From: a virus
DNA length: 42,929 nucleotides
Direction: 5' to 3' (one strand)
Virus record (IMG/VR): IMGVR_UViG_3300020156_000047
Span: 1-42,929 of that record
The notes under the pieces were generated by a model. That model saw only the letters and a program-made list of their open reading frames with translations, was not told where the DNA came from and ran no database searches. Shown here one piece after another: positions 5,148 to 22,441 of the stretch. A program made the position numbers and the translations under genes. Positions within the stretch are counted from its first letter, which is position 1, and each line of letters begins with the position of its first letter.

Positions 5148-6569
5148 ATGTATGCTGCTATTTATGTCCGCGTATCGACAGAGGAGCAAGCAGAACAAGG
5201 ATATTCGTTAGACGTTCAAAAAGAAAGACTGATTGCATTTTGTAAATCCCAAGGATGGGATGATACTAAAATTTACATAGACGATGGTTACACAGGAACA
5301 AACTTAGAACGACCTGCTATGAAAAGAATGATTAGGCATATTGAAGAGAAGAAAATCCACACTGTTGTAGTTTTTAAGCTTGATCGGTTGAGTAGAAAGC
5401 AAAAGGATGTTTTAAAATTGCTGGAAGATGTATTCGAACCAAACAATGTTGTTTTCAAATCAGCAACAGAGCCTTTCGAAACGTCAACTGCTTTCGGTAA
5501 GGCAATGATAGGTGTGTTGGCCGTATTTGCTCAGCTTGAAAGAGATATGATTGTTGAAAGAACAACAAGCGGAAGACGCGAAAAAATTAGACAAGGAATT
5601 TGGAGCGGAGGAAGAATTCCTTTCGGATATAGTTGGAATAAGAGCTTGCAAAAATTTGAAATCGTCCCAGAAGAAGCTTGGATCGTGAAAGAAATATTTA
5701 GGCGTTACCTTTTAGGGAATTCAAGGTTGTCTATAGCTGAATGGGCTGCCGATCGGACAAATGAAAGAACTATCGACCACAGCACCATTAGAGACATGAT
5801 AGCGAGACCTGTATACAAAGGCGACCTAGTTAACGCCGACCAAACTTATGAAGGCAGTCATGAGCCGATCATCGATCCGGAAGTATGGGAAGCTGCACAA
5901 CGAGAAACATTGAAACGAAAAGAAGGGGCCACTCCAATAGGAGAGTATTTACTAACTGGGTTGCTAAAGTGTGGCGTCTGTGGTGGTAACATTGTTCACG
6001 TTTTGAGGAAAGATAAGAAATATGGGAAAGTTTATATTTATAATTACTACACATGTAAAAATCAACATGTCAGAAAAAAAGACAGCACAAATAACTGTAG
6101 CCTTAACTATATCCCCAGGGAAAGAATTGAAAAATTTGTTATAGATGAAATTAAAGAAACTTTTTTGTACCCTTCAAGAATGAAGTCATTGTTAGAATCA
6201 AGTGATCAAGAAGATGAGTTTGATTATTCTGAAAAAAACATTAAAGAGCGAGTTAAGAAAATTGAGGCAGATTTAGAGAACCTCTATGACGCTATTCAAA
6301 GTGGTGACATAAAGGCTTCTGCTGTTAGTAGTCGTATAAAAAAATTAGAAGAAGAGAAGGAATTTTTAGAAAATGATCTTGACGAAATAAATTTGAATAA
6401 CTATACATCGACAATAAGTAAAAATGAATTTAAAGCCGCCATAAAAGATGTTGGTGTTGCTTGGGATTACATGACCGAAGAAGAACAAAAAAATGCACTG
6501 CGCAGACTTATTTCCACAGTAACATTAAATAGAGACTCCGACCCTGTAATTGAATGGAATTTTTTTTGA
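5148..6569 (+). CDS. int: large serine integrase, 473 aa
   Basis: The N-terminal resolvase domain contains YVRVSTEEQ with catalytic Ser10, followed by FKLDRLSR and LERDMIVERT. The recombinase domain follows (WSGGRIPFGY, residues about 152-250), then a zinc ribbon with Cys275, Cys278, Cys303 and Cys317, and a coiled coil at about residues 350-405 (IKERVKKIEADLENL, IKKLEEEKEFLENDLDEI). This is the standard order of large serine recombinases, which join attP and attB without host factors. Length is normal for the family. A GGGTGAG ribosome site precedes the ATG. The gene lies just behind the repressor, so both may be on one lysogenic transcript. Confidence 0.95.
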   Translation: MYAAIYVRVSTEEQAEQGYSLDVQKERLIAFCKSQGWDDTKIYIDDGYTGTNLERPAMKRMIRHIEEKKIHTVVVFKLDRLSRKQKDVLKLLEDVFEPNNVVFKSATEPFETSTAFGKAMIGVLAVFAQLERDMIVERTTSGRREKIRQGIWSGGRIPFGYSWNKSLQKFEIVPEEAWIVKEIFRRYLLGNSRLSIAEWAADRTNERTIDHSTIRDMIARPVYKGDLVNADQTYEGSHEPIIDPEVWEAAQRETLKRKEGATPIGEYLLTGLLKCGVCGGNIVHVLRKDKKYGKVYIYNYYTCKNQHVRKKDSTNNCSLNYIPRERIEKFVIDEIKETFLYPSRMKSLLESSDQEDEFDYSEKNIKERVKKIEADLENLYDAIQSGDIKASAVSSRIKKLEEEKEFLENDLDEINLNNYTSTISKNEFKAAIKDVGVAWDYMTEEEQKNALRRLISTVTLNRDSDPVIEWNFF

Positions 6570-7453: not shown

Positions 7454-7654
7454 TTACTCATTGACTCTCAATCCTACAGCCAGCACTCGCCACTCACCGA
7501 GCGTAAACTCCGGATCGCTGATCTTGCCGCGCAGGTCGCCGCTGCCAAACTCCGCAACAAACCACTTAGGAGCCGGCACACGTTTAGCCGCTGCTTCCAG
7601 CTCCGTTACCCTTGCTACCACTTTATCAAATGCTGCTTTCTCTGTTGCTGTCAT
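7454..7654 (-). other. internal translation product of the endolysin gene (predicted, 66 aa)
   Basis: In-frame ATG at 7652-7654 (Met167) is preceded by AAGGAGG at 8-nt spacing, a better ribosome site than that of the full-length gene. It would make the C-terminal domain alone. Endolysins that co-produce a free binding domain from an internal start are known in other Gram-positive phages. Confidence 0.65.
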
Positions 7655-8152
7655 ACTGTCGTCCTCCTTATTGATCTTAGCCAGAGCCTTAGCCATGGCT
7701 GTCTCCGTTGGTTGTCTGCCTGCGCGGTATTGTGCTGTGGTCAGGCCAAAGCACATCTCAAAATGCGGATAATCCTTAAAGCTCTTCCAATCCCCGCCCC
7801 ATTCAAATCCAAGAGATTTCGCGATCTCCACAACCTTCATCCACGCCGGACCGACCGTCCACGATACCGATTTACCGTCCGGCTGCAGCAGGCAAAAATC
7901 GATAGCAACCCCAAAGTTATGATTACTATAGCCCCCTCGGGCATTGGTGACGATCTTGCCAGGCTTACTCCGACCCTGCGCATACAACGCGTCCTGCTCA
8001 GCAATGCTCCGTAAGCCTTGGGTAATCAGGATCGGCACACCGCTAGCAAAAGATCGCTCGATTAAGCGCTCCGTAGCCTGCCGGACGACTGGATGTAAGC
8101 CAGATAACCTACTTGCTGATTTAGCCTTTACGTAGTCCAGTGTCAGCGTCAT
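7454..8152 (-). CDS. endolysin, M15 (VanY/CwlK-like) peptidase with C-terminal domain, 232 aa
   Basis: Residues about 12-150 form an M15 zinc peptidase of the L-alanyl-D-glutamate peptidase class: zinc ligands His78 and Asp85 in SNHNFGVAIDF, and His130 in DYPHFEM. These enzymes cut the peptide stem of murein at the end of infection. Residues about 167-232 are a separate domain (EKAAFDKVVARVTELE then PKWFVAEFGSGDL), likely for wall binding or oligomerisation. A strong internal ribosome site precedes Met167. The start overlaps the holin gene by 32 nt, the usual holin-endolysin pairing. Confidence 0.92.
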   Translation of the reverse strand: MTLTLDYVKAKSASRLSGLHPVVRQATERLIERSFASGVPILITQGLRSIAEQDALYAQGRSKPGKIVTNARGGYSNHNFGVAIDFCLLQPDGKSVSWTVGPAWMKVVEIAKSLGFEWGGDWKSFKDYPHFEMCFGLTTAQYRAGRQPTETAMAKALAKINKEDDSMTATEKAAFDKVVARVTELEAAAKRVPAPKWFVAEFGSGDLRGKISDPEFTLGEWRVLAVGLRVNE

Positions 8153-8615: not shown

Positions 8616-11600
8616 TTAGTACGGCACCACCTCCCGAGCAAGGGAGTTACCCATCTCGGCCATACGATTGATCCGCTCCTGCAGCTCACGAAGTTTGGCA
8701 CGTTTATCCGCATTACTTAGACTCGTGTCTCCCTGTACCTCTCTGATCTCCTTGCGCACGGCGGACATGTTCTGGCTGATCTTATTCAACCGCTTGCGCA
8801 GGGGGTCGCTATACCACTCAGGCAGGTCAACCAGCGCTCGGTCGGCATACGCCTGATCGAGTTTATCCTTATAGTTGTAAAACTCCGTCGATAGATCATT
8901 GCTGAATACCGGATCGGCAGTCATCTGCTGAGACAAGGCGTAGCCAACGTCACCCCCAGGAGACAGGAGCGGCTGTCCGAATTGTCCAAGGAATCCTGAA
9001 TACTGCCGGGCCAGGTAGTCTAATTTCTTCGGACTCTGCTCGAACGGTGTGCCGTAAGTCTGCTCCCCGATCCATCGAGCGATATCTGTCGTCTTAGCGT
9101 CTGCCTGTAGTCCAGGAGACAGCCTTTCTAGATTACCGGGCACAATAGGAGCTCCGCTGAAGGTTTCATTTGCGGCGACGTCAGCAACAGGACCGAGAAT
9201 CGTATCACCGACCGCACCAAGCAATCGGTCAGTTAGACCTCCACCCTTAGCGGCACCTTGTATCCCTGGAGGCAATAGCGTTGTGCGTAATCGGTCAGCA
9301 AAGTCCCTGAATGCGGCTGGATCCTCTTCGGCCAACAGGCGCATGAGGCGTTCCGGAATATCTGAAAAGATGGTCCCTTGCTCCTGCGGCTTTGCAATCT
9401 TGATGAAGGTTCCGCCCCCCTTGGGGATCATGAGATAAGCATCCTTTGTCCGATTGCTTAGCTGCTGGTAATTAGGGTCGTCATGGTTAATCGCATACAG
9501 CGCCAGAGTCGGAAGCGTGATAGCTAGAATCGACTTGACCAACGCCTTTGCCGGATCGTCTAGGTACGTACGCACCGTCTTATCCATCCCCTGCATTGCG
9601 GCGTTGAAATAAGGAAATACCTTATCAACCTCACCTGATAATGCTCCGCGGCGCTTAAAGTTAACCGTCAAATCCTGCGCCTCTTTCAGCGCTGCTTGGA
9701 TATCCCCGCCCTGGCGCTGAATCCGTTTGAACTCCGATAGGCGCGGGGCAATCTCCACCGCGTTAAGGACGTTCTCATAAGCATCCTTGACTCTACCTAA
9801 TGTGGGGCGTAAGCCGCTCTGAGGAAGAATCGCTCTCTTGCTCTGAGCCAGCAGATTACGGTCTGCAGCTATTGCGGAAGCGTGCCCGCCGCCGACATTT
9901 AGGAAATCTCTATACGCACCTCGTTTTAACCCGATGTCAACCGCTGCGCTAGCCAAATCCACAACAAATTCTAGTGGATTGTTGGTTGTCTTACTGGCGA
10001 TGTATGCCTGCGGAATGTCCCGGAACAAGTTACGAGTCAAGGAGAACACAGGGTTACTACCCGTAGTAAGCAGCTTCATTGTGTTGGTTAGCTTTCCTAC
10101 AGCATTCAGGAGGAATCCGGATTGTTCTGGTCCAAGTGCCGTTAGCGCACTCAGCAGTTGCTTGTCTTTGATCTTCACGTGCTGTGCTTCTCCATCTATT
10201 AGAACCCGGACGATATTATCCTTGTCCAACTGCGTCCGCTGCATCGCTTTATCAAAGTCGGCAGAGAATCGGAATAACAGTTCATCCAGACCGCCCTCGT
10301 CCAGAACGATCTTTGCAATATCCTCCGGTTTCTCAGGCTGCTTGACGATCTCAGCCCAAGGTTCGAAATCCTCCGGAGCCCGCTGTATGTTCTCGACATA
10401 CTGCTGCATGACCTTGTTCCGCTTAGCCGATTTAACGAAGGCGTCCACGTTTTCGATCATGGCTTCGATTGGAGATATAATCAGGCGCTGAGATCCTCCG
10501 ACCTGATACCCCTTAACCGGATTGGACTGATTTCCGAATCCTTTCTTCTTGCCACCGAAGCCTAATCCCGTTTTCTCCAGATCGGAGAAGAAACGTTTAT
10601 TCGGTACATAGAATGGATTCTTCTCTATCCAGGCATTCAGCATATCCTGCGGTATCATACCCGTGTCTACGAGCCACTTCTGCGCCATTTGATTCTGAAA
10701 TTCATAGAGACCCTCAGACATCTCCTTGAACTGTGGGAACATCCGCTCATACTCAGCGACCTTCTGCGAACCGTAGGTAGGCGACCAATTCAGGTCATCC
10801 CTAAACACCTTCTCGCCGCGCTCAAACCGAGTGATAGCGTGCTTGTTTAACAGATAATCTTCAAAGTCAACATAGATGTGCTTATTCTTCTTCATGAGCG
10901 GTTTTAGTGGGGACAGGATGTTCTTAAGTGAATCCCCCACTACTTGGCCGTTAGCGTCCACCAGACCATCAGTGATAATCCGCTTTGCCACGACGTCAGC
11001 ACCGCGGGAAGCCAGTCCAAGGTCGTGTACTCGCTGATTCGTTGGTATTTTCTCACCCATAACTGCGTCAAGAATTTTATCTTGCTGGTTCAGCGGGTGA
11101 AGATCGTCAACCAAAGCCGTATAAAGTCGATCCGGCTTAATCGTTAATCCCTTAATCGCATCCTTCTGCCTACTCGTCAATTGCGACCGCGTATCCGTTT
11201 TAAGAGAATCATACGGGTCGAGCTTCTTGACCGCCGATATTCCGAGCCCGGACGGTTCGTCGAATTGACCTGGACGAAGGATAGGTTCAGCACTTGGATC
11301 GAAGGTTGGAAGATTCGGAGATGTGCTCACTGCCGGGTCTGCGTTTTGGGCTAAGAGTAAATCCAAATCATCTTCTGATATCTGCCCGCCATTCATCAGG
11401 CGCTCGTTAATATCATCAATCTGTGCCGTCGGTTGCTGTCTTCTCTCGCCTGGCGTAATACGTGTATCCCGAAGCTCCTGCGATACGAGAGGCTGGTCAA
11501 CTACTCGCAAAGCAGGATCAATCTCGCGTATTCCGTTCTGCAGATTCTCCCGAACAGCCACCAGTCCAGACAGTTGATCATCGTAACCATTTGTCTCGCG

Positions 11601-12953
11601 CCAAGAAGGAACCTGGCCTGCTTCATCCATGAATCCATTATCGACCCGTTCACGAGCTAGGGCGTATAGGTCCTTATTGGAAGGCTTCTTACCATTAGCC
11701 GCAAAGAACTCCTGATACCACAGCGGATTATCCGAGATTCGCCCAGTACGTCCAATAACATCTCCTGCCGCGTCTCGCTGTAAGCCTCCCTGCTGCAACC
11801 CGCCCCGGGTATCCCGGCTCTCTTTCAAAAACTTATATTCATCAATGACGGCTTGCTCATAGCGAGTATTCAGTTCATTAATTGCCTGATCGATTTCCTT
11901 CAAGGCCGTACGCCCTTCTGCCGCATTCTCGGCAACCGCCCTTGTGCCAGGCGTAGCTTCCGGCAGATCAAAGGTGTAATCGTTAATAATCGGATCAGTG
12001 CCGGCTGCAAGGTTAGATCGTTCCGCTGCTGCGGCCAAGCGGGTATCCAACTCCCCTTCAGGTAAGGCGAGGATTTCAGCAATCTCATTCTCCGGAATAC
12101 CGTTTCGTTTGAGCAGCTTAGACAAGCCTGATCCGACAATTGGCATCAGACCGCCAAGACCAACCCCAAGCGCCCCTCCAGTTGCTGCTGAGACAAGCAA
12201 GTCCTTATTATCTGTGTCTGCCGTCATCATGCCTGTTGCCAAGCCCTGAACCGTTCCCGCACCGCCTTCTCGGATCGCTTCTCGGGTGATCTTCTGTGCC
12301 AGTTGCGGTTTGAACCCTTCTGCCAGCTTATTAGCAATTCCCTGTTCCACTCGCTGAGCCGCAGGCAGGGACATCAGGTCATCAGTCAACTTATAAGATC
12401 CGGCAAGCGGTCCTGTATTAACCGGAGCGCCCGTAGGGACCGCTATAGTCAGTCCCACACCTGCAATGTCAGCTACCTTGTTGGCTATCTTGCTGCCGGT
12501 ATCCGGTTGGATGGTAGCAGGCTTGCCGCCAGACAGTACACTATCGGCTTGGTGACCAGCACGGGATATAAACTTGCCGACAGGGTTGCCATAGGTCAGC
12601 CAGTTCATTGCTTTGGCATATGCTTTAATCGGTGCAGGAGCGCCGCTCGCATTGATATCAGAAATACCTTTTTCGTACTCTGTAATCTGAGGTTGCTCCG
12701 CCTGCTTAGACAGCGAGTCGTATACTGCGGCATTCATAAGATTTAGCGGTGTGACTACTCCGTACTTGGGCTGTAACTCAGACATCGGCGTCCCGATATT
12801 GCTTGTTGGAACGGTCGACCTCTTCCGGATTGCATCAAACTTTGAAGATGTCACGGCAGGAGCAGAAGCGGGATTATTAACCCGCTCCATTACTCGCTTT
12901 CTAGCTTCATCCCCTCGTTCGCGGTTACGTATTAAATCAAACTGACTTGCCAC
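8616..12953 (-). CDS. giant internal virion / DNA-injection protein, 1445 aa
   Basis: The GTG start follows AAGGCGGTGA. The N-terminus carries two related charged motifs (SQFDLIRNR and SKFDAIRKR). A glycine-rich hydrophobic stretch occurs near residues 250-275 (GALGVGLGGLMPIVGSGL), and the C-terminal third holds a region resembling the 'large polyvalent protein associated domain' LPD38 (GGGTFIKIAKPQEQGTIFSD). The end is a charged helix. Very large proteins in this position of short-tailed phages are packed in the head and ejected with DNA. The neighbouring lytic transglycosylase and 501-aa protein support this. Assignment is by position, size and composition. Confidence 0.7.
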   Translation of the reverse strand: MASQFDLIRNRERGDEARKRVMERVNNPASAPAVTSSKFDAIRKRSTVPTSNIGTPMSELQPKYGVVTPLNLMNAAVYDSLSKQAEQPQITEYEKGISDINASGAPAPIKAYAKAMNWLTYGNPVGKFISRAGHQADSVLSGGKPATIQPDTGSKIANKVADIAGVGLTIAVPTGAPVNTGPLAGSYKLTDDLMSLPAAQRVEQGIANKLAEGFKPQLAQKITREAIREGGAGTVQGLATGMMTADTDNKDLLVSAATGGALGVGLGGLMPIVGSGLSKLLKRNGIPENEIAEILALPEGELDTRLAAAAERSNLAAGTDPIINDYTFDLPEATPGTRAVAENAAEGRTALKEIDQAINELNTRYEQAVIDEYKFLKESRDTRGGLQQGGLQRDAAGDVIGRTGRISDNPLWYQEFFAANGKKPSNKDLYALARERVDNGFMDEAGQVPSWRETNGYDDQLSGLVAVRENLQNGIREIDPALRVVDQPLVSQELRDTRITPGERRQQPTAQIDDINERLMNGGQISEDDLDLLLAQNADPAVSTSPNLPTFDPSAEPILRPGQFDEPSGLGISAVKKLDPYDSLKTDTRSQLTSRQKDAIKGLTIKPDRLYTALVDDLHPLNQQDKILDAVMGEKIPTNQRVHDLGLASRGADVVAKRIITDGLVDANGQVVGDSLKNILSPLKPLMKKNKHIYVDFEDYLLNKHAITRFERGEKVFRDDLNWSPTYGSQKVAEYERMFPQFKEMSEGLYEFQNQMAQKWLVDTGMIPQDMLNAWIEKNPFYVPNKRFFSDLEKTGLGFGGKKKGFGNQSNPVKGYQVGGSQRLIISPIEAMIENVDAFVKSAKRNKVMQQYVENIQRAPEDFEPWAEIVKQPEKPEDIAKIVLDEGGLDELLFRFSADFDKAMQRTQLDKDNIVRVLIDGEAQHVKIKDKQLLSALTALGPEQSGFLLNAVGKLTNTMKLLTTGSNPVFSLTRNLFRDIPQAYIASKTTNNPLEFVVDLASAAVDIGLKRGAYRDFLNVGGGHASAIAADRNLLAQSKRAILPQSGLRPTLGRVKDAYENVLNAVEIAPRLSEFKRIQRQGGDIQAALKEAQDLTVNFKRRGALSGEVDKVFPYFNAAMQGMDKTVRTYLDDPAKALVKSILAITLPTLALYAINHDDPNYQQLSNRTKDAYLMIPKGGGTFIKIAKPQEQGTIFSDIPERLMRLLAEEDPAAFRDFADRLRTTLLPPGIQGAAKGGGLTDRLLGAVGDTILGPVADVAANETFSGAPIVPGNLERLSPGLQADAKTTDIARWIGEQTYGTPFEQSPKKLDYLARQYSGFLGQFGQPLLSPGGDVGYALSQQMTADPVFSNDLSTEFYNYKDKLDQAYADRALVDLPEWYSDPLRKRLNKISQNMSAVRKEIREVQGDTSLSNADKRAKLRELQERINRMAEMGNSLAREVVPY

Positions 12954-12965
12954 TATATCACCGCC

Positions 12966-13304
12966 TTAGTACCACTTATTTTTATCCCAATGCTCCAGCG
13001 CTTTCTCCGGCGTCTTATAGCGATCCTTGATGTACTTAAGCCCAGCGAGAGCCTGCTGATAAGGATCGCTCCAGTCCACTTTGTCGCCGCCGTAATTAGC
13101 CCTGGTAGCATCGAGAAACTGAAATAAGCCCTCTGCAGAGGACTTGGGATTTTTAGCTTTATGATTAAAGCTTGACTCGCGCGCAACCAATTCAAGAGTA
13201 GGAGTTATCCACTCCGCCGGAAGCTTAAGTGTCTTGATTGCTCTACCCACAGCTGCCGATGCGGCAGTAAATCCCGCGGGGTTACCTGCAGCGTCCTGTT
13301 TCAT
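12966..13304 (-). CDS. lytic transglycosylase domain (likely made by -1 frameshift from the 501-aa gene)
   Basis: Contains the SLT (lysozyme-like) core: ELVARESSFN with the catalytic Glu, then SAEGLFQFLDATRANYGG, and a final ALEHWDKNKWY. Such domains in internal virion proteins open murein for DNA entry. The first Met (13302-13304) has no ribosome site upstream. The frame is open upstream without a stop, through the hairpin to the end of the 501-aa gene, and is -1 relative to it. I therefore read it as the C-terminal part of a fusion of about 630 residues, adding 129 residues after codon 501. Confidence 0.82.
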   Translation of the reverse strand: MKQDAAGNPAGFTAASAAVGRAIKTLKLPAEWITPTLELVARESSFNHKAKNPKSSAEGLFQFLDATRANYGGDKVDWSDPYQQALAGLKYIKDRYKTPEKALEHWDKNKWY

Positions 13305-13329
13305 CTTGTAATAGTTGGTGTACTTACTG

Positions 13330-13361
13330 GCCCCGGACTTGCCGGGGCTACTCAGTTTCCC
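13330..13361 (-). promoter_or_regulatory. programmed -1 ribosomal frameshift signal
   Basis: On the minus strand, the heptamer G-GGA-AAC (13361-13355) is in register with the zero frame (TCG GGA AAC TGA), directly before the stop. A 6-nt spacer leads to a perfect 7-bp stem GCCCCGG/CCGGGGC (13348-13342 with 13336-13330) with a CAAGT loop. After a -1 slip translation continues CTG AGT AGC ... into the transglycosylase frame. All three elements match the X-XXY-YYZ model. Confidence 0.8.
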
Positions 13362-14857
13362 GAAGAAGCTCCGTATTTCTTCATGTACTTGTCTATTTCC
13401 GTCTTTGTCATACCGAGTGAATTGAGAATCTGATTTGTCTCCGCGTCAGACAAGCCCGAATCGACGACGTTAAGGAACATCTGCTCTCGTTGGGCAGCAT
13501 CGGTTGTAATTTTGCTTCCCGTCTTTGTTTGATTGCCGAACTCATCAGTTGTAAAAGTCGGGACGGTGTACAGACTTTGCATGGATTGGAGTACTTGGTT
13601 TGCAGTCAAGCCACCGCTGGAAGAGGATGAAGGATTGCTCATCTCGTAATCCAGTTGAGCCCATGCTCGTGCGTTATCATCCTGCGAAAGCGCCAACGAA
13701 GCTTGACGGTATGCCTGCTGGTTATTCTCCGCGAGCATTTGCAATCCGTAGTTAAGCCCAAACTGCTGAACGCTCTGATCAAACTGCATTTTCCATTGTT
13801 GATCCGAGATAGCGTCACGTGCTTTCTGGTATGCGAACTGCTCTTGGCTAAACTGTTGGTTGAACGCTTGATCGTTACGCGCCAAGTCAAGTTGTTGGCC
13901 TGCCAGAGTTCTAATACCCGGGTTATTACTGCTCGCCTGGTCGCGGGTACGATCCGCTCCATAGAAACTAGGATCAATTCCCATAGCTTGTAACTGACTT
14001 CGAAGCGTGTCAGCCTGCTGGCTAAGCCCTGCTCTTTCCTGAGCAGTTACACCCGAAGACTCTGCTTGTTGTTTCAGTCCGAGAATTTGATTAATAACCT
14101 GCCTCGCTTCTGTCGGCAAGTAGTTACCTGTTAGCTGAGCTTCAGTAATCGGCTTCTGGAAATACTCGTTGTCTTGGAGGCCGTACAGATTGCTTAAATT
14201 ACCGATCGCATCCTGTCCAACACCATAGTTAAGCTGCTGCACTTGAAGATTTCGGTTAGCATCATCGTTATATCGTTGGTATGCCTGTTGCATCAGGGCA
14301 GGAACAAGGTCATTTGCAATACTCTTCATGGCATTCGTTCCGATCTGGTTCGCAACCGTCTCGGACCAAGAAGACTGCCCCTGACCACTCGCCCGAAGCA
14401 TAGCATTCGTATCGATCTGCTGGTTCTCTACATTTCGCTTAGCCTCTGCAAGCTGTGCCTGATACGCTGGATCCGTCGTTTGATCGTAAGAAAATGCTTC
14501 TGGAGTCGTGTATTGAAAAGCCGCTTGCTTACTGATGAAGTCGTTAATCCGACCGAGAGTATCCGCGGTGGGGCTCGTTGGTGGCGTATAGGTCGCCTGT
14601 GGTGTTGATTTAACCGTATTTGCCGCCTGCACCATTGGGCTTGTCGTCGGACTTGCTTTGCTGGGCTGACTGTACTGGTTCCAAGTGCTGTCAAAATTCT
14701 GCTGAGAAGTTAAAGCCCTACCGTTGTTACTCGCGTCAGACTTGATAAAATTCTTACCGTCGATCGTGACATATCCGTTTGAATAGCCGATCCGTGCATT
14801 ATCGACTCCCTTCTTGTTTAGGGCGTCCCTGATGCCGTAATCATAGATTGTAGCCAT
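13352..14857 (-). CDS. internal virion protein, 501 aa (zero-frame product)
   Basis: ATG at 14855-14857 behind GAAAGGAGGG. The N-terminus (ARIGYSNGYVTIDGKNFI) resembles the short beta repeats found in stalk-like proteins. Residues about 120-400 are Gln- and Ala-rich helices (ENQQIDTNAMLRASGQGQSS, QQFSQEQFAYQKARDAISDQ), as in ejected internal proteins of P22- and T7-like phages. The C-terminus is ITTDAAQREQMFLNVVD then EIDKYMKKYGASSGN. It is followed by the frameshift signal, so a fraction probably carries the transglycosylase domain. Confidence 0.75.
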   Translation of the reverse strand: MATIYDYGIRDALNKKGVDNARIGYSNGYVTIDGKNFIKSDASNNGRALTSQQNFDSTWNQYSQPSKASPTTSPMVQAANTVKSTPQATYTPPTSPTADTLGRINDFISKQAAFQYTTPEAFSYDQTTDPAYQAQLAEAKRNVENQQIDTNAMLRASGQGQSSWSETVANQIGTNAMKSIANDLVPALMQQAYQRYNDDANRNLQVQQLNYGVGQDAIGNLSNLYGLQDNEYFQKPITEAQLTGNYLPTEARQVINQILGLKQQAESSGVTAQERAGLSQQADTLRSQLQAMGIDPSFYGADRTRDQASSNNPGIRTLAGQQLDLARNDQAFNQQFSQEQFAYQKARDAISDQQWKMQFDQSVQQFGLNYGLQMLAENNQQAYRQASLALSQDDNARAWAQLDYEMSNPSSSSSGGLTANQVLQSMQSLYTVPTFTTDEFGNQTKTGSKITTDAAQREQMFLNVVDSGLSDAETNQILNSLGMTKTEIDKYMKKYGASSGN

Positions 14858-16577: not shown

Positions 16578-17975
16578 TCAGTACAGCGGCAACTGCCGCG
16601 TTTGTCGTGTAAACTCGTGAATCTTCGCCCAACCGGTTCCGCTGAACTTCACTCGAACCCAATTTTCACGAGCGAAGCTTGCAACAGGTATGATCACACG
16701 CCTTACTTGTGTGCCGGATCCCGTTAGCGTCTGAACCAGCGACCAATCCTCGCCCTGAATCGATGGAGATAGATGTATCTGCATCGTTCCTGATAGCTCA
16801 ACAACCATCCACATCTTGTACCAACGCATCTTCTGAGCGGCTGAGCCGCCGTTAAAGGGCTTGGTTGTCGCTGACCAAGAGATATCATTTCCGTTATCAG
16901 TTGTCCCTTCCAGGCGAAGCATACGCCCCTGAGCGTCCCCGATATACAACTTGTTTTGCATGACGGAGAAATGGACCGCACGAATCCCGCTCCACTTGCT
17001 CCAAGCCTGAATTCCGGATCTCGGGTCAAATACCAGCATGCGATCAGAAGGGATGTTGAAATAGAGCTTTCTACCATCCGAACCCGCAGCGCTTTGGTCT
17101 GTGATCCCGTCTATGAATCTTCCGACGATTTCGGAGAAAGATTTCTCCGGCGGCATACCGCCACCGTACTCATATATCCCGCTCGAATGCATGAACCGCA
17201 TGAATCCATCCTGCGTGATTGCGGCTTTGTGATTCGCTAGCCCTGTATCCTCGGTGATCAGCTTCGTATTGAAGTCGGAAGGAAGCGAACCGTATAACTC
17301 GTGCAGGCTACCCGGCATACCGATCGTAAGCTTGGATAGGCTACCGGAAAGCATGTTAATATCCTCACCACGGCGGGACTCAATCTTCTTCCGGTAGCTA
17401 TCATCGAGGTTTCCTGTAAACTTATCCCATGTCGTCGGCTTGTCCTGCGCACAGGCCCATAACTCCTTCCCTACCGCGCACCATAGTCTGTTCTGATAGG
17501 TGGTCATATACTTCCCGTTCTGCGGCGCCCCGCTCAGATTGGTCACGCTGGAACCGTCATACTTCTTTACAGGATCCACTCCATTGCAACCAATTAGGTT
17601 TACGTCGGAGAGGTTGCCTTGAAAGTTGGTAAACGACCATTCAGCAGTTGTACTGAGACCAGTTGCCAATGTACTCCAGGACGACCCATTCCAGCGCCGC
17701 CAAGTTCCGTCATTGAATACGACATGCAGCTCACGATCTTTCCAAACTCCTATCCCGAGGACACGGGATCCACCGCTACCTATAACCGAATAACCCGGCC
17801 TAGTGGAGATGGCCGGATAGTCGTCAGACGTCATATTCTGCATATTCGTAAAGTAGTTCTCGCCGATGGATAACGGATCAAAACCATTAAGGCCCTTAAA
17901 GTCTCGAATAGGTACAGGGGGTAGTACACCAGGCAAAGGTTGTTTTTCGGAAGTTGCATACTGAATAACCTTCAT
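16578..17975 (-). CDS. tail hub / DNA-stabilisation protein, P22 gp10-like, 465 aa
   Basis: Start TGATG-coupled to the preceding gene, with GGGGGTGA upstream. The sequence consists of repeating beta blades (VLGIGVWKDRELHVVFNDG, TYQNRLWCAVGKELWACAQD, AVHFSVMQNKLYIGDAQGRM), a propeller-like pattern. The length is close to P22 gp10 (about 470 residues), which closes the portal channel below gp4. The order adaptor-like, hub, needle-like matches. Homology is inferred from pattern and position. Confidence 0.65.
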   Translation of the reverse strand: MKVIQYATSEKQPLPGVLPPVPIRDFKGLNGFDPLSIGENYFTNMQNMTSDDYPAISTRPGYSVIGSGGSRVLGIGVWKDRELHVVFNDGTWRRWNGSSWSTLATGLSTTAEWSFTNFQGNLSDVNLIGCNGVDPVKKYDGSSVTNLSGAPQNGKYMTTYQNRLWCAVGKELWACAQDKPTTWDKFTGNLDDSYRKKIESRRGEDINMLSGSLSKLTIGMPGSLHELYGSLPSDFNTKLITEDTGLANHKAAITQDGFMRFMHSSGIYEYGGGMPPEKSFSEIVGRFIDGITDQSAAGSDGRKLYFNIPSDRMLVFDPRSGIQAWSKWSGIRAVHFSVMQNKLYIGDAQGRMLRLEGTTDNGNDISWSATTKPFNGGSAAQKMRWYKMWMVVELSGTMQIHLSPSIQGEDWSLVQTLTGSGTQVRRVIIPVASFARENWVRVKFSGTGWAKIHEFTRQTRQLPLY

Positions 17976-18529
17976 CAGCTATCACCCCCTTGGTAGTTCT
18001 GAGCTGCGACGTTCCATGCCGCTTTATACTCATTCTCATAATTGGCCGCCTTAACGCTATCATCCTGTGAGTTTGCTAGGTGCGCAGCCAGCGCCGGTAC
18101 ATAAGTCCAGTGATACTCCTCGGGAGCATCCGGAGAAGCTAGCAGGTTTGACGACGTGAAGGCGGTGGTTGCAATTCTTCGATAGCGCAAGACGCCCTGT
18201 AGAACGGAATAGGGGGCGGGATAGAGCGTCAGCGTACGACTCGAATCATCGAAGCTATAGGCATTCTGTGCAGGCGTTACTGCCTCTCGGTCAAGGCTCA
18301 TATAGCGGAACATCCCGACCATGACCAGATCGATATTCTTCGATCGAACATCATCAGACAGAATATAATCCTGCATAGCCGCAGTAGTCGAAAACTTCGC
18401 AATTTTCGGTATCTTGACTACGTTGAAAAAATCCTGGTTAATCGCATTGATCCAAATTAGCTTGTCAGCAGCCGGCACTTCATTCGGAACGAGCAAATCC
18501 GCTTCGCCGATGATCTCACCAATATTCAT
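17975..18529 (-). CDS. head-tail adaptor-like protein, 184 aa
   Basis: ATG 18527-18529 is chosen because AAAGGAG lies 8 nt upstream; an upstream in-frame extension lacks one. Helical N-terminus (NIGEIIGEADLLVPNEVPAA), a central beta part (LTLYPAPYSVLQGVLRYRR) and a C-terminal helix (LAAHLANSQDDSVKAANYEN) resemble the small connector proteins built on helical bundles. It shares general layout with the 188-aa protein at 21875. Role: neck/connector, inferred. Confidence 0.6.
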   Translation of the reverse strand: MNIGEIIGEADLLVPNEVPAADKLIWINAINQDFFNVVKIPKIAKFSTTAAMQDYILSDDVRSKNIDLVMVGMFRYMSLDREAVTPAQNAYSFDDSSRTLTLYPAPYSVLQGVLRYRRIATTAFTSSNLLASPDAPEEYHWTYVPALAAHLANSQDDSVKAANYENEYKAAWNVAAQNYQGGDS

Positions 18530-18550
18530 TTTCACAACTCCTTTCCGAAC

Positions 18551-18583
18551 AAATAAAGAGCGCACCCAGGAAGGGATACGCTC
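18551..18583 (-). terminator. terminator-like hairpin
   Basis: Minus strand: GAGCG(T)(A) paired with (T)(G)CGCTC and an inner CCC/GGG, about 10 bp with one bulge, followed by TTTATTTG. It lies between the 61-aa gene and the 184-aa adaptor gene. Confidence 0.65.
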
Positions 18584-18864: not shown

Positions 18865-19560
18865 CTAGACTATTAATTGCTGATAAATATCAAGATAGTA
18901 AGCATCTGTATAATGAACAGGAGATTTGCCCCAGGTATGACGAACATCTCCAATAGGTTTAGATGATACTATTTTTAATCCCGGGCAGAAAGATTTGAAT
19001 CTTTCATAATATCTTTTAAGCATAGCATTGTTTTTTTTGATTTGCTCCGGGTTATCAAATCGTTCTATTACTCCGTCTTGATTTAAAAATGAATCGGCCC
19101 AATATGCTTCATGCAATACGATTCGATCAACTGGAATGATGGATACTAAACGACTAACGAATATCTCTAGGCTGCTTTCCCATAACTTATGGGTAGGTTC
19201 TTGGAATCTTGGTATTTTTTCAAACCTGTAGGATGCTTCAAGACCACTATTTAAAAATTCAACAGATCGAAGTAAATAAGAATCTCCATATCTAACTAAG
19301 TCAAATCGCTCGTCGACAAAATCAATAATTAAAATTTCAGAATCAAGTATGGTATCATTAAACCCTTTTTGAACATCATTCATAACCATTCTCTTTTGGA
19401 ACCCAGATTCAAGATTTATCTTGTCTATGAATTCCAATACAGGCCTGCTCATTTGGCTGATTACAGATGTACGTGCGTGATAATTGAAATTAACATTCGT
19501 AATACCAGCCACTCTGTAAACATCTCTGGTTACACAACTGCCGAAAATAGAAATTTTCAA
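18865..19560 (-). CDS. DUF6270-like (SGNH-type fold?) protein, 231 aa
   Basis: Begins MKISIFGSCVTRDVYR; the FGSC block after the first strand followed by R-D is the hallmark of DUF6270 proteins, which resemble SGNH hydrolases and are often found near surface-glycan genes. A late HYTDAYYLDIYQ block supplies a conserved His/Asp pair. Start is TTG 19558-19560 with AAAGGTGAT upstream. AT-rich compared with neighbouring virion genes and placed just after the tailspike gene, so it may modify or bind a host glycan. Activity is not demonstrated by the sequence. Confidence 0.65.
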   Translation of the reverse strand: MKISIFGSCVTRDVYRVAGITNVNFNYHARTSVISQMSRPVLEFIDKINLESGFQKRMVMNDVQKGFNDTILDSEILIIDFVDERFDLVRYGDSYLLRSVEFLNSGLEASYRFEKIPRFQEPTHKLWESSLEIFVSRLVSIIPVDRIVLHEAYWADSFLNQDGVIERFDNPEQIKKNNAMLKRYYERFKSFCPGLKIVSSKPIGDVRHTWGKSPVHYTDAYYLDIYQQLIV

Positions 19561-21874: not shown

Positions 21875-22441
21875 TCACCATCTTTCTTTTACGACATATT
21901 TTTCAAAGCCGCTATTTGCAGTTTTCCAATCATTCAATAACTGCTGGTACAATCCGTCATACCCTCCGGAGAGCTCCCGGAGGACTCCATAAACAAGCAC
22001 CATATCGTAATCCGGATCAAATCCGGTCATCCCGTCCATATCCGAAACAGTTAGCGGCGCCAATACCGGTATATGAAAAAGCTTCAATCCCTGAGTAATG
22101 TCACCATCTGGGGCGGGAACAAGCCCTATCACTCCCGCCTGAAAATAGTAATAGGGCTTAATCGAATCCTGATGGAACTGACGAAAGGTCAACCTGCGCC
22201 AGTCGCCTTCCCAAAGGATATCGACATCAACGACATTACCTGGTGGGCATGGTAGGCTATACTGACTCTGCCCTTCAACTATATCGATGGCCGTACATAC
22301 TGTTTCAGCCTGCTGTTGTGCCGAACCTGATTCCCTAAGAAGTCGGTCCCTTACCTGAGTTATTTTCCGCAGGATCGACTGCGGTGACAGGTAATTCGGC
22401 GCCTTTTCTGCGATTTCCTCCACTACGTCCCTTACGAGCAT
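21875..22441 (-). CDS. head-tail adaptor (connector) protein, 188 aa
   Basis: ATG behind GAGGAGGGG. Helices at the N-terminus (VVEEIAEKAPNYLSPQSILR, ITQVRDRLLRESGS) lead to a beta insertion (LVPAPDGDITQGLKLFHIPV) and a long C-terminal helix that ends WKTANSGFEKYVVKERW. This is the layout of short connector proteins placed after the capsid gene in phages. Overlaps the upstream 72-aa gene by 107 nt. Confidence 0.65.
   Translation of the reverse strand: MLVRDVVEEIAEKAPNYLSPQSILRKITQVRDRLLRESGSAQQQAETVCTAIDIVEGQSQYSLPCPPGNVVDVDILWEGDWRRLTFRQFHQDSIKPYYYFQAGVIGLVPAPDGDITQGLKLFHIPVLAPLTVSDMDGMTGFDPDYDMVLVYGVLRELSGGYDGLYQQLLNDWKTANSGFEKYVVKERW

Follow-up and report, generated by a model that had tools for sequence, protein, structure and literature searches.

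The analysed window is a stretch of 42,929 nt comprising positions 1 to 42,929 of the IMG/VR virus record IMGVR_UViG_3300020156_000047. On its minus strand, a gene of 501 codons (13352..14857) encodes a phage protein belonging to an unnamed, mostly helical family with 109 distinct homologues. This gene ends with TCG GGA AAC TGA, whereby the slip heptamer G_GGA_AAC (GGGAAAC, 13355..13361) is read as XXY YYZ in the 0 frame and directly abuts the TGA stop codon (13352..13354). A spacer of 6 nt that includes the stop codon (TGAGTA) separates the heptamer from a putative stimulatory stem-loop at 13330..13348, in which the arms GCCCCGG (13348-13342) and CCGGGGC (13336-13330) form 7 bp closed by the 5-nt loop CAAGT. 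The 57 nt starting at the last base of the TGA have a folding energy of -15.4 kcal/mol (z=-2.5), and an Rfam search gave no match. The stem was also considered as a terminator and rejected, since it was not called as such and is not followed by a T-run. Another hairpin, terminator-like in appearance, lies at 13126-13145 within the transglycosylase frame, and equally many of this kind are expected by chance in shuffled sequences.

The -1 frame on the same strand (12966..13361 from the slip site to its TAA) remains open for 129 codons past the heptamer, up to the TAA at 12968-12966, so that the predicted fusion comprises about 630 aa. This frame encodes an SLT lytic transglycosylase, as its match to PF01464 (E=6.5e-9) beats the curated Pfam cut-off and the RESSF motif containing the catalytic Glu is invariant in 14 relatives. 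An ATG-initiated ORF of 112 aa (12966..13304, minus strand) lies within this frame and is probably no separate gene. An X_XXY_YYZ heptamer in the 0 frame, a structure downstream of it, for which a distance of about 5-9 nt is expected, and an open -1 coding region are therefore all found in the window. The initial annotation had described the heptamer in its correct register, the perfect 7-bp stem with a 5-nt loop 6 nt further on, and the open transglycosylase frame; the heptamer was recovered exactly, and the other two features were likewise confirmed.

For the upstream protein, searches of Pfam, PHROGs, PDB and BFVD gave no convincing family or fold match outside the SLT domain, to which the tape-measure-like matches were confined. 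Homology to known ejection proteins was found in neither the sequence nor the fold searches. The AlphaFold model of a naturally fused relative (L009; pLDDT 74, pTM 0.29) is almost entirely helical, the junction being spanned by a linker of low confidence, and Foldseek with this model returned no significant PDB match, while the best viral match was a tape measure protein at weak significance (E 0.03). A tblastn search of 50,697 phage records revealed no homologue of the 501-aa protein, nor did a DNA search with one relative, and the collected phage genomes displayed only weak portal similarity.

The window encodes a P22-like portal, two SU10-type adaptors, a beta-helix tailspike-like protein, a holin and an M15-type endolysin, and serine-recombinase-like and repressor-like genes were recognised by reading the translations. 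The upstream gene is situated after the adaptor and tail genes and before the holin and endolysin genes; the gene next to it (8616..12953, minus strand) encodes a 1445-aa LPD38 protein (PF18857, E=1.7e-42), possibly a co-ejected polyvalent protein. This position presumably approximates that of the P22 ejection genes and, together with the helicity, is the basis for reading it as a putative ejection (internal virion) protein. Alternatively, the frameshift may be real and the upstream protein a tail or assembly protein, a reading favoured by the missing family and fold matches and by the restriction of the tape-measure-like matches to the SLT domain. We regard this as possible, though less likely, because the portal, adaptors and tailspike-like protein suggest a short-tailed phage and because the gene lies ahead of the LPD38 gene, about where P22 has its ejection genes. 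The presence of two SU10-type adaptors (21875-22441 and 17975-18565) in one phage perhaps reflects a duplication, and a DUF6270 protein (18865-19560) adjoins the tailspike-like gene.

A profile of the 501-aa protein was used to screen 222 loci, which yielded 109 distinct junctions; L024-L032, unrelated small SLT proteins, were omitted, and L047 and L048 from the Bacillus side were excluded from the counts as too distant. Relatives were found in Paenibacillus, Cohnella and Gorillibacterium genomes. A slip motif occurs in 89 of the 109 distinct homologues, canonical (X_XXY_YYZ) in 74 and near-canonical in 15, and in all 89 it gives access to a -1 frame that stays open for at least 70 codons and encodes a hydrolase. 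The stop codon follows the heptamer at a distance of 0 nt in 79 of these 89 loci. GGGAAAC is the most frequent canonical heptamer (43 loci), followed by GGGAAAG (17), AAAAAAC and CCCAAAC (3 each), GGGAAAA and AAAGGGG (2 each) and others (4), whereas the near-canonical motifs are GGGGGAG (13) and TTTTCAG (2). Elsewhere in these genes, canonical in-frame heptamers are present at only 0.26% of codons, compared with 74 of 109 loci in the last codons. Among the homologues, the +1 frame contained no recognisable hydrolase, the register being always -1 or in-frame.

Some loci depart from this pattern. In L012, L021, L091 and L100, TTT CAG TAG replaces the canonical heptamer in front of a strong stem (CCAGCGG/CCGCTGG), which would be compatible with a single-tRNA slip on U_UUU. 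Twelve homologues of the upstream protein (L164, L169, L171, L197, L199, L205, L210-L213, L215 and L219) contain no recognised hydrolase module, and therefore the fusion is dispensable or has been replaced in some lineages. Of the two distant loci, L048 has its SLT domain in frame at the junction.

The stem is conserved together with the heptamer. Its mean best-helix score was 20.9, compared with 11.6 +/- 0.36 for a null of codon-shuffled downstream sequence, which places it ~25 SD above, and the 45-nt folding energy dropped from a background of -6.9 kcal/mol to -16.7 kcal/mol at the site. When the 5' arm was fixed six nucleotides past the heptamer at 95 sites, a partner arm pairing at 7/7 positions was found at 70 of them. 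All seven stem pairs covary, with at least four standard pair types at each pair position, and the heptamer-to-stem spacing is 4-7 nt in most loci. The information content reaches 0.9-2 bits in the heptamer, while the upstream nucleotides are nearly random, mostly with <0.5 bit.

If the transglycosylase were a separate gene, it would need its own start at ATG 13304 or reinitiation after the TGA. Such an ATG does exist in the window, in frame and 50 nt past the start of the stop codon, and it is the sole ATG, GTG or TTG of the cargo frame in the relevant stretch; however, no Shine-Dalgarno pairing was detected at it. A start search in 89 loci covered the cargo frame from where it opens upstream to 100 nt beyond the stop, and 39 of these cargo frames contain no ATG, GTG or TTG at all, while 74 contain no ATG. 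The best cargo-frame starts pair with the anti-Shine-Dalgarno sequence at a mean of -3.2 kcal/mol, as opposed to -9.6 kcal/mol for the starts of the 0-frame genes. Furthermore, homology of the transglycosylase frames among relatives extends to the slip site and covers the part ahead of the window's ATG, which is conserved at the protein level, and independent initiation explains neither the retained heptamer and stem nor the fixed register. The lack of starts in so many cargo frames makes separate initiation of the hydrolase very improbable, and most of the cargos could hardly be produced without a frame shift. Gene callers may annotate a truncated orphan hydrolase at such loci.

Slippage of the RNA polymerase instead of the ribosome would also provide a second protein form. 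Runs of G or T are present at some loci (G5, T6), and the distant locus L047 contains an 11-G run at its junction with the SLT domain in the -1 frame, where slippage, frameshifting or an indel are all conceivable. However, no base is repeated more than three times in a row in the dominant GGGAAAC, and an X_XXY_YYZ register followed by a stem at about 5-7 nt is a signal to the ribosome, so that we give this explanation very little credence. The idea that decay or sequencing errors split what was once an in-frame fusion gene, for which one might cite seven existing in-frame fusions and one truly broken cargo (L138, where an early indel in the glucosaminidase frame behind an intact slip site and stem marks a pseudogene or a sequencing error), is barely credible, as it is contradicted by the same -1 relation in 89 distinct loci, the conserved catalytic sequence, the heptamer and the covarying stem.

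Thus, the -1 frameshift fusion proposed in the initial annotation is strongly supported by conservation, covariation, the missing cargo starts and the natural occurrence of these domains fused in frame. An alignment of related phages had been proposed there as a check, and heptamer and stem proved to be conserved beside variable upstream bases; the absence of a Shine-Dalgarno sequence at the first ATG held in the pairing analysis, and homologues whose hydrolase has a clear ribosome site of its own, named there as an argument against the fusion, were looked for and none was found.

The enzyme behind the slip site is variable. The -1 frame encodes an SLT domain in 50 loci, a glucosaminidase (PF01832) in 27, a VgrG3-like lysozyme (PF21277) in 11 and an M15 peptidase (PF08291) in 1, as counted from sequence clusters with the Pfam identity checked on representatives (PF01464, PF01832, PF21277 and PF08291). 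The sole M15-peptidase cargo, in L159 (junction near 5480), follows an AAAGGGG/GGGGGAG slip site, and its enzyme class broadly resembles that of the window endolysin at 7454-8152. Mapped on a tree of the 0-frame proteins, cargo types require at least 36 changes compared with a mean of 41.1 for shuffled labels, and therefore the link between cargo and ancestry is only weak. In eight sister pairs, the DNA similarity mostly ends at or near the heptamer or stem and returns beyond the cargo; for example, L003 and L082 share 85% similarity up to 17 nt past the heptamer start and then again further on. At the sequence level, the slip signal is a fixed joint, behind which the hydrolase is exchanged as a cassette.

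In seven homologues (L009, L017, L119, L137, L168, L193 and L198), the hydrolase is in frame with no intervening stop, and seven separate in-frame conversions are required on a quick tree of this fast-evolving mosaic protein. Except for L168, which has no canonical heptamer, these fusions keep a junction heptamer in frame (GGGAAAC twice, CCCAAAG twice, CCCCCCG and GGGAAAG), and in all six the -1 frame terminates after 3-5 codons. Each of the six also keeps a stem above its own codon-shuffled null (P <0.002 to 0.028). These relatives, as distinct from the window itself, hence display a reversed frameshift arrangement of the dnaX type. That the in-frame relatives mostly keep a slip signal of reversed polarity suggests that selection favours the presence of both protein forms. 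This need for both forms is probable and not proven, because the immediate -1 stop in L009 and L017 may be mere inheritance from the TGAGTAGC motif, which is absent from the other four heptamer-keeping fusions, and because a recent fusion could keep its heptamer passively.

Several known systems resemble this arrangement in part. In lambda G/GT and other tail-assembly chaperones, a -1 shift at the same types of heptamer near the end of a phage gene likewise generates a C-terminally extended form. However, the G/GT products act as chaperones that mature virions lack (PMC5009743) and are encoded before the tape measure of long-tailed phages, whereas here the portal is of the P22 type, the phage looks short-tailed, the extension is a hydrolase and the next gene encodes the LPD38 protein. 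GGGAAAC has been reported in phage Colossus (PMC3556154), and it slips with low efficiency in E. coli, yet is very likely used by insertion sequences (PMC4066793). Retroviral Gag-Pro and Gag-Pol are frameshift fusions of a structural protein with an enzyme, which allows carriage of the enzyme into the particle (PMC5009743). The -1 fusion predicted here is alike in this respect, but it involves a phage, a murein hydrolase, a simple stem and an interchangeable enzyme, with no sign of proteolytic processing.

Ig-like domains are mobile C-terminal extensions of phage structural proteins, attached by frameshift or in frame (T3, A2 and others), and the direction (+1, -1 or in frame) has been judged indifferent (PMC5009743). 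By contrast, the extensions described here are catalytic and joined only in the -1 register or in frame through a conserved, covarying signal. In the reversed relatives, an in-frame long form and a -1 shift that meets a stop almost at once resemble E. coli dnaX (tau/gamma); reversed dnaX candidates have been proposed, and a single change can reverse such roles at an efficiency near 50% (PMC5009743). Unlike dnaX, both polarities occur here within one phage protein family, with the in-frame state reached seven times separately. Wall-cutting enzymes are also fused to entry proteins in other phages. T7 gp16 is a virion-associated entry protein with a murein hydrolase domain. Such domains are likewise present in the tape-measure proteins of T5, TM4 and P1 (Sit) (PMC9024508), but in all of these the fusion exists in every copy and needs no recoding.

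In the papers searched, phage frameshifting concerned tail chaperones, coat and tail proteins, and Ig-like extensions. Our literature search found no frameshift joining a murein hydrolase to a phage structural protein, which is weak evidence of novelty given its thin coverage of subscription papers, and the main text on podovirus API480 of P. larvae mentions neither a transglycosylase nor a frameshift. The device is of a known kind; what appears to be new is the hydrolase cargo, its swapping and the two polarities.

Combined, these data make it very probable that -1 slippage at a conserved signal fuses a hydrolase to a fraction of the upstream phage protein. Ribosomes finishing the 501-aa gene would encounter GGGAAAC and the stem, where some would terminate at the TGA while others would slip back by one base and read on in the hydrolase frame. 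The resulting 630-aa product, presumably the minor form, would consist of the same phage protein extended by a flexible C-terminal tail that bears a murein hydrolase. Both forms may then be built into the particle, from which they would most likely be ejected along with the DNA, and the tailed copies could cut peptidoglycan during entry; selection would act on having both. That the enzyme is swapped while the slip site stays suggests that these phages keep two protein forms on purpose. Slightly more likely than not is the broader view that the slip signal serves as a recombination joint, behind which unrelated murein hydrolases are exchanged, and as a dosage device, that the in-frame cases reuse the slip to make an enzyme-free form, and that the mix of tailed and untailed copies per particle is the selected trait.

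For a large group of Paenibacillus prophages, an enzyme is thus predicted to be added to some copies of one phage protein, and the slip signal indicates where wall-degrading enzymes of phages are joined in modular fashion. With a single conserved slip signal, four enzyme types that replace one another, dozens of such swaps and seven changes of frame, the family constitutes a natural experiment, which makes it testable why a virus would need a mix of enzyme-bearing and enzyme-free copies.
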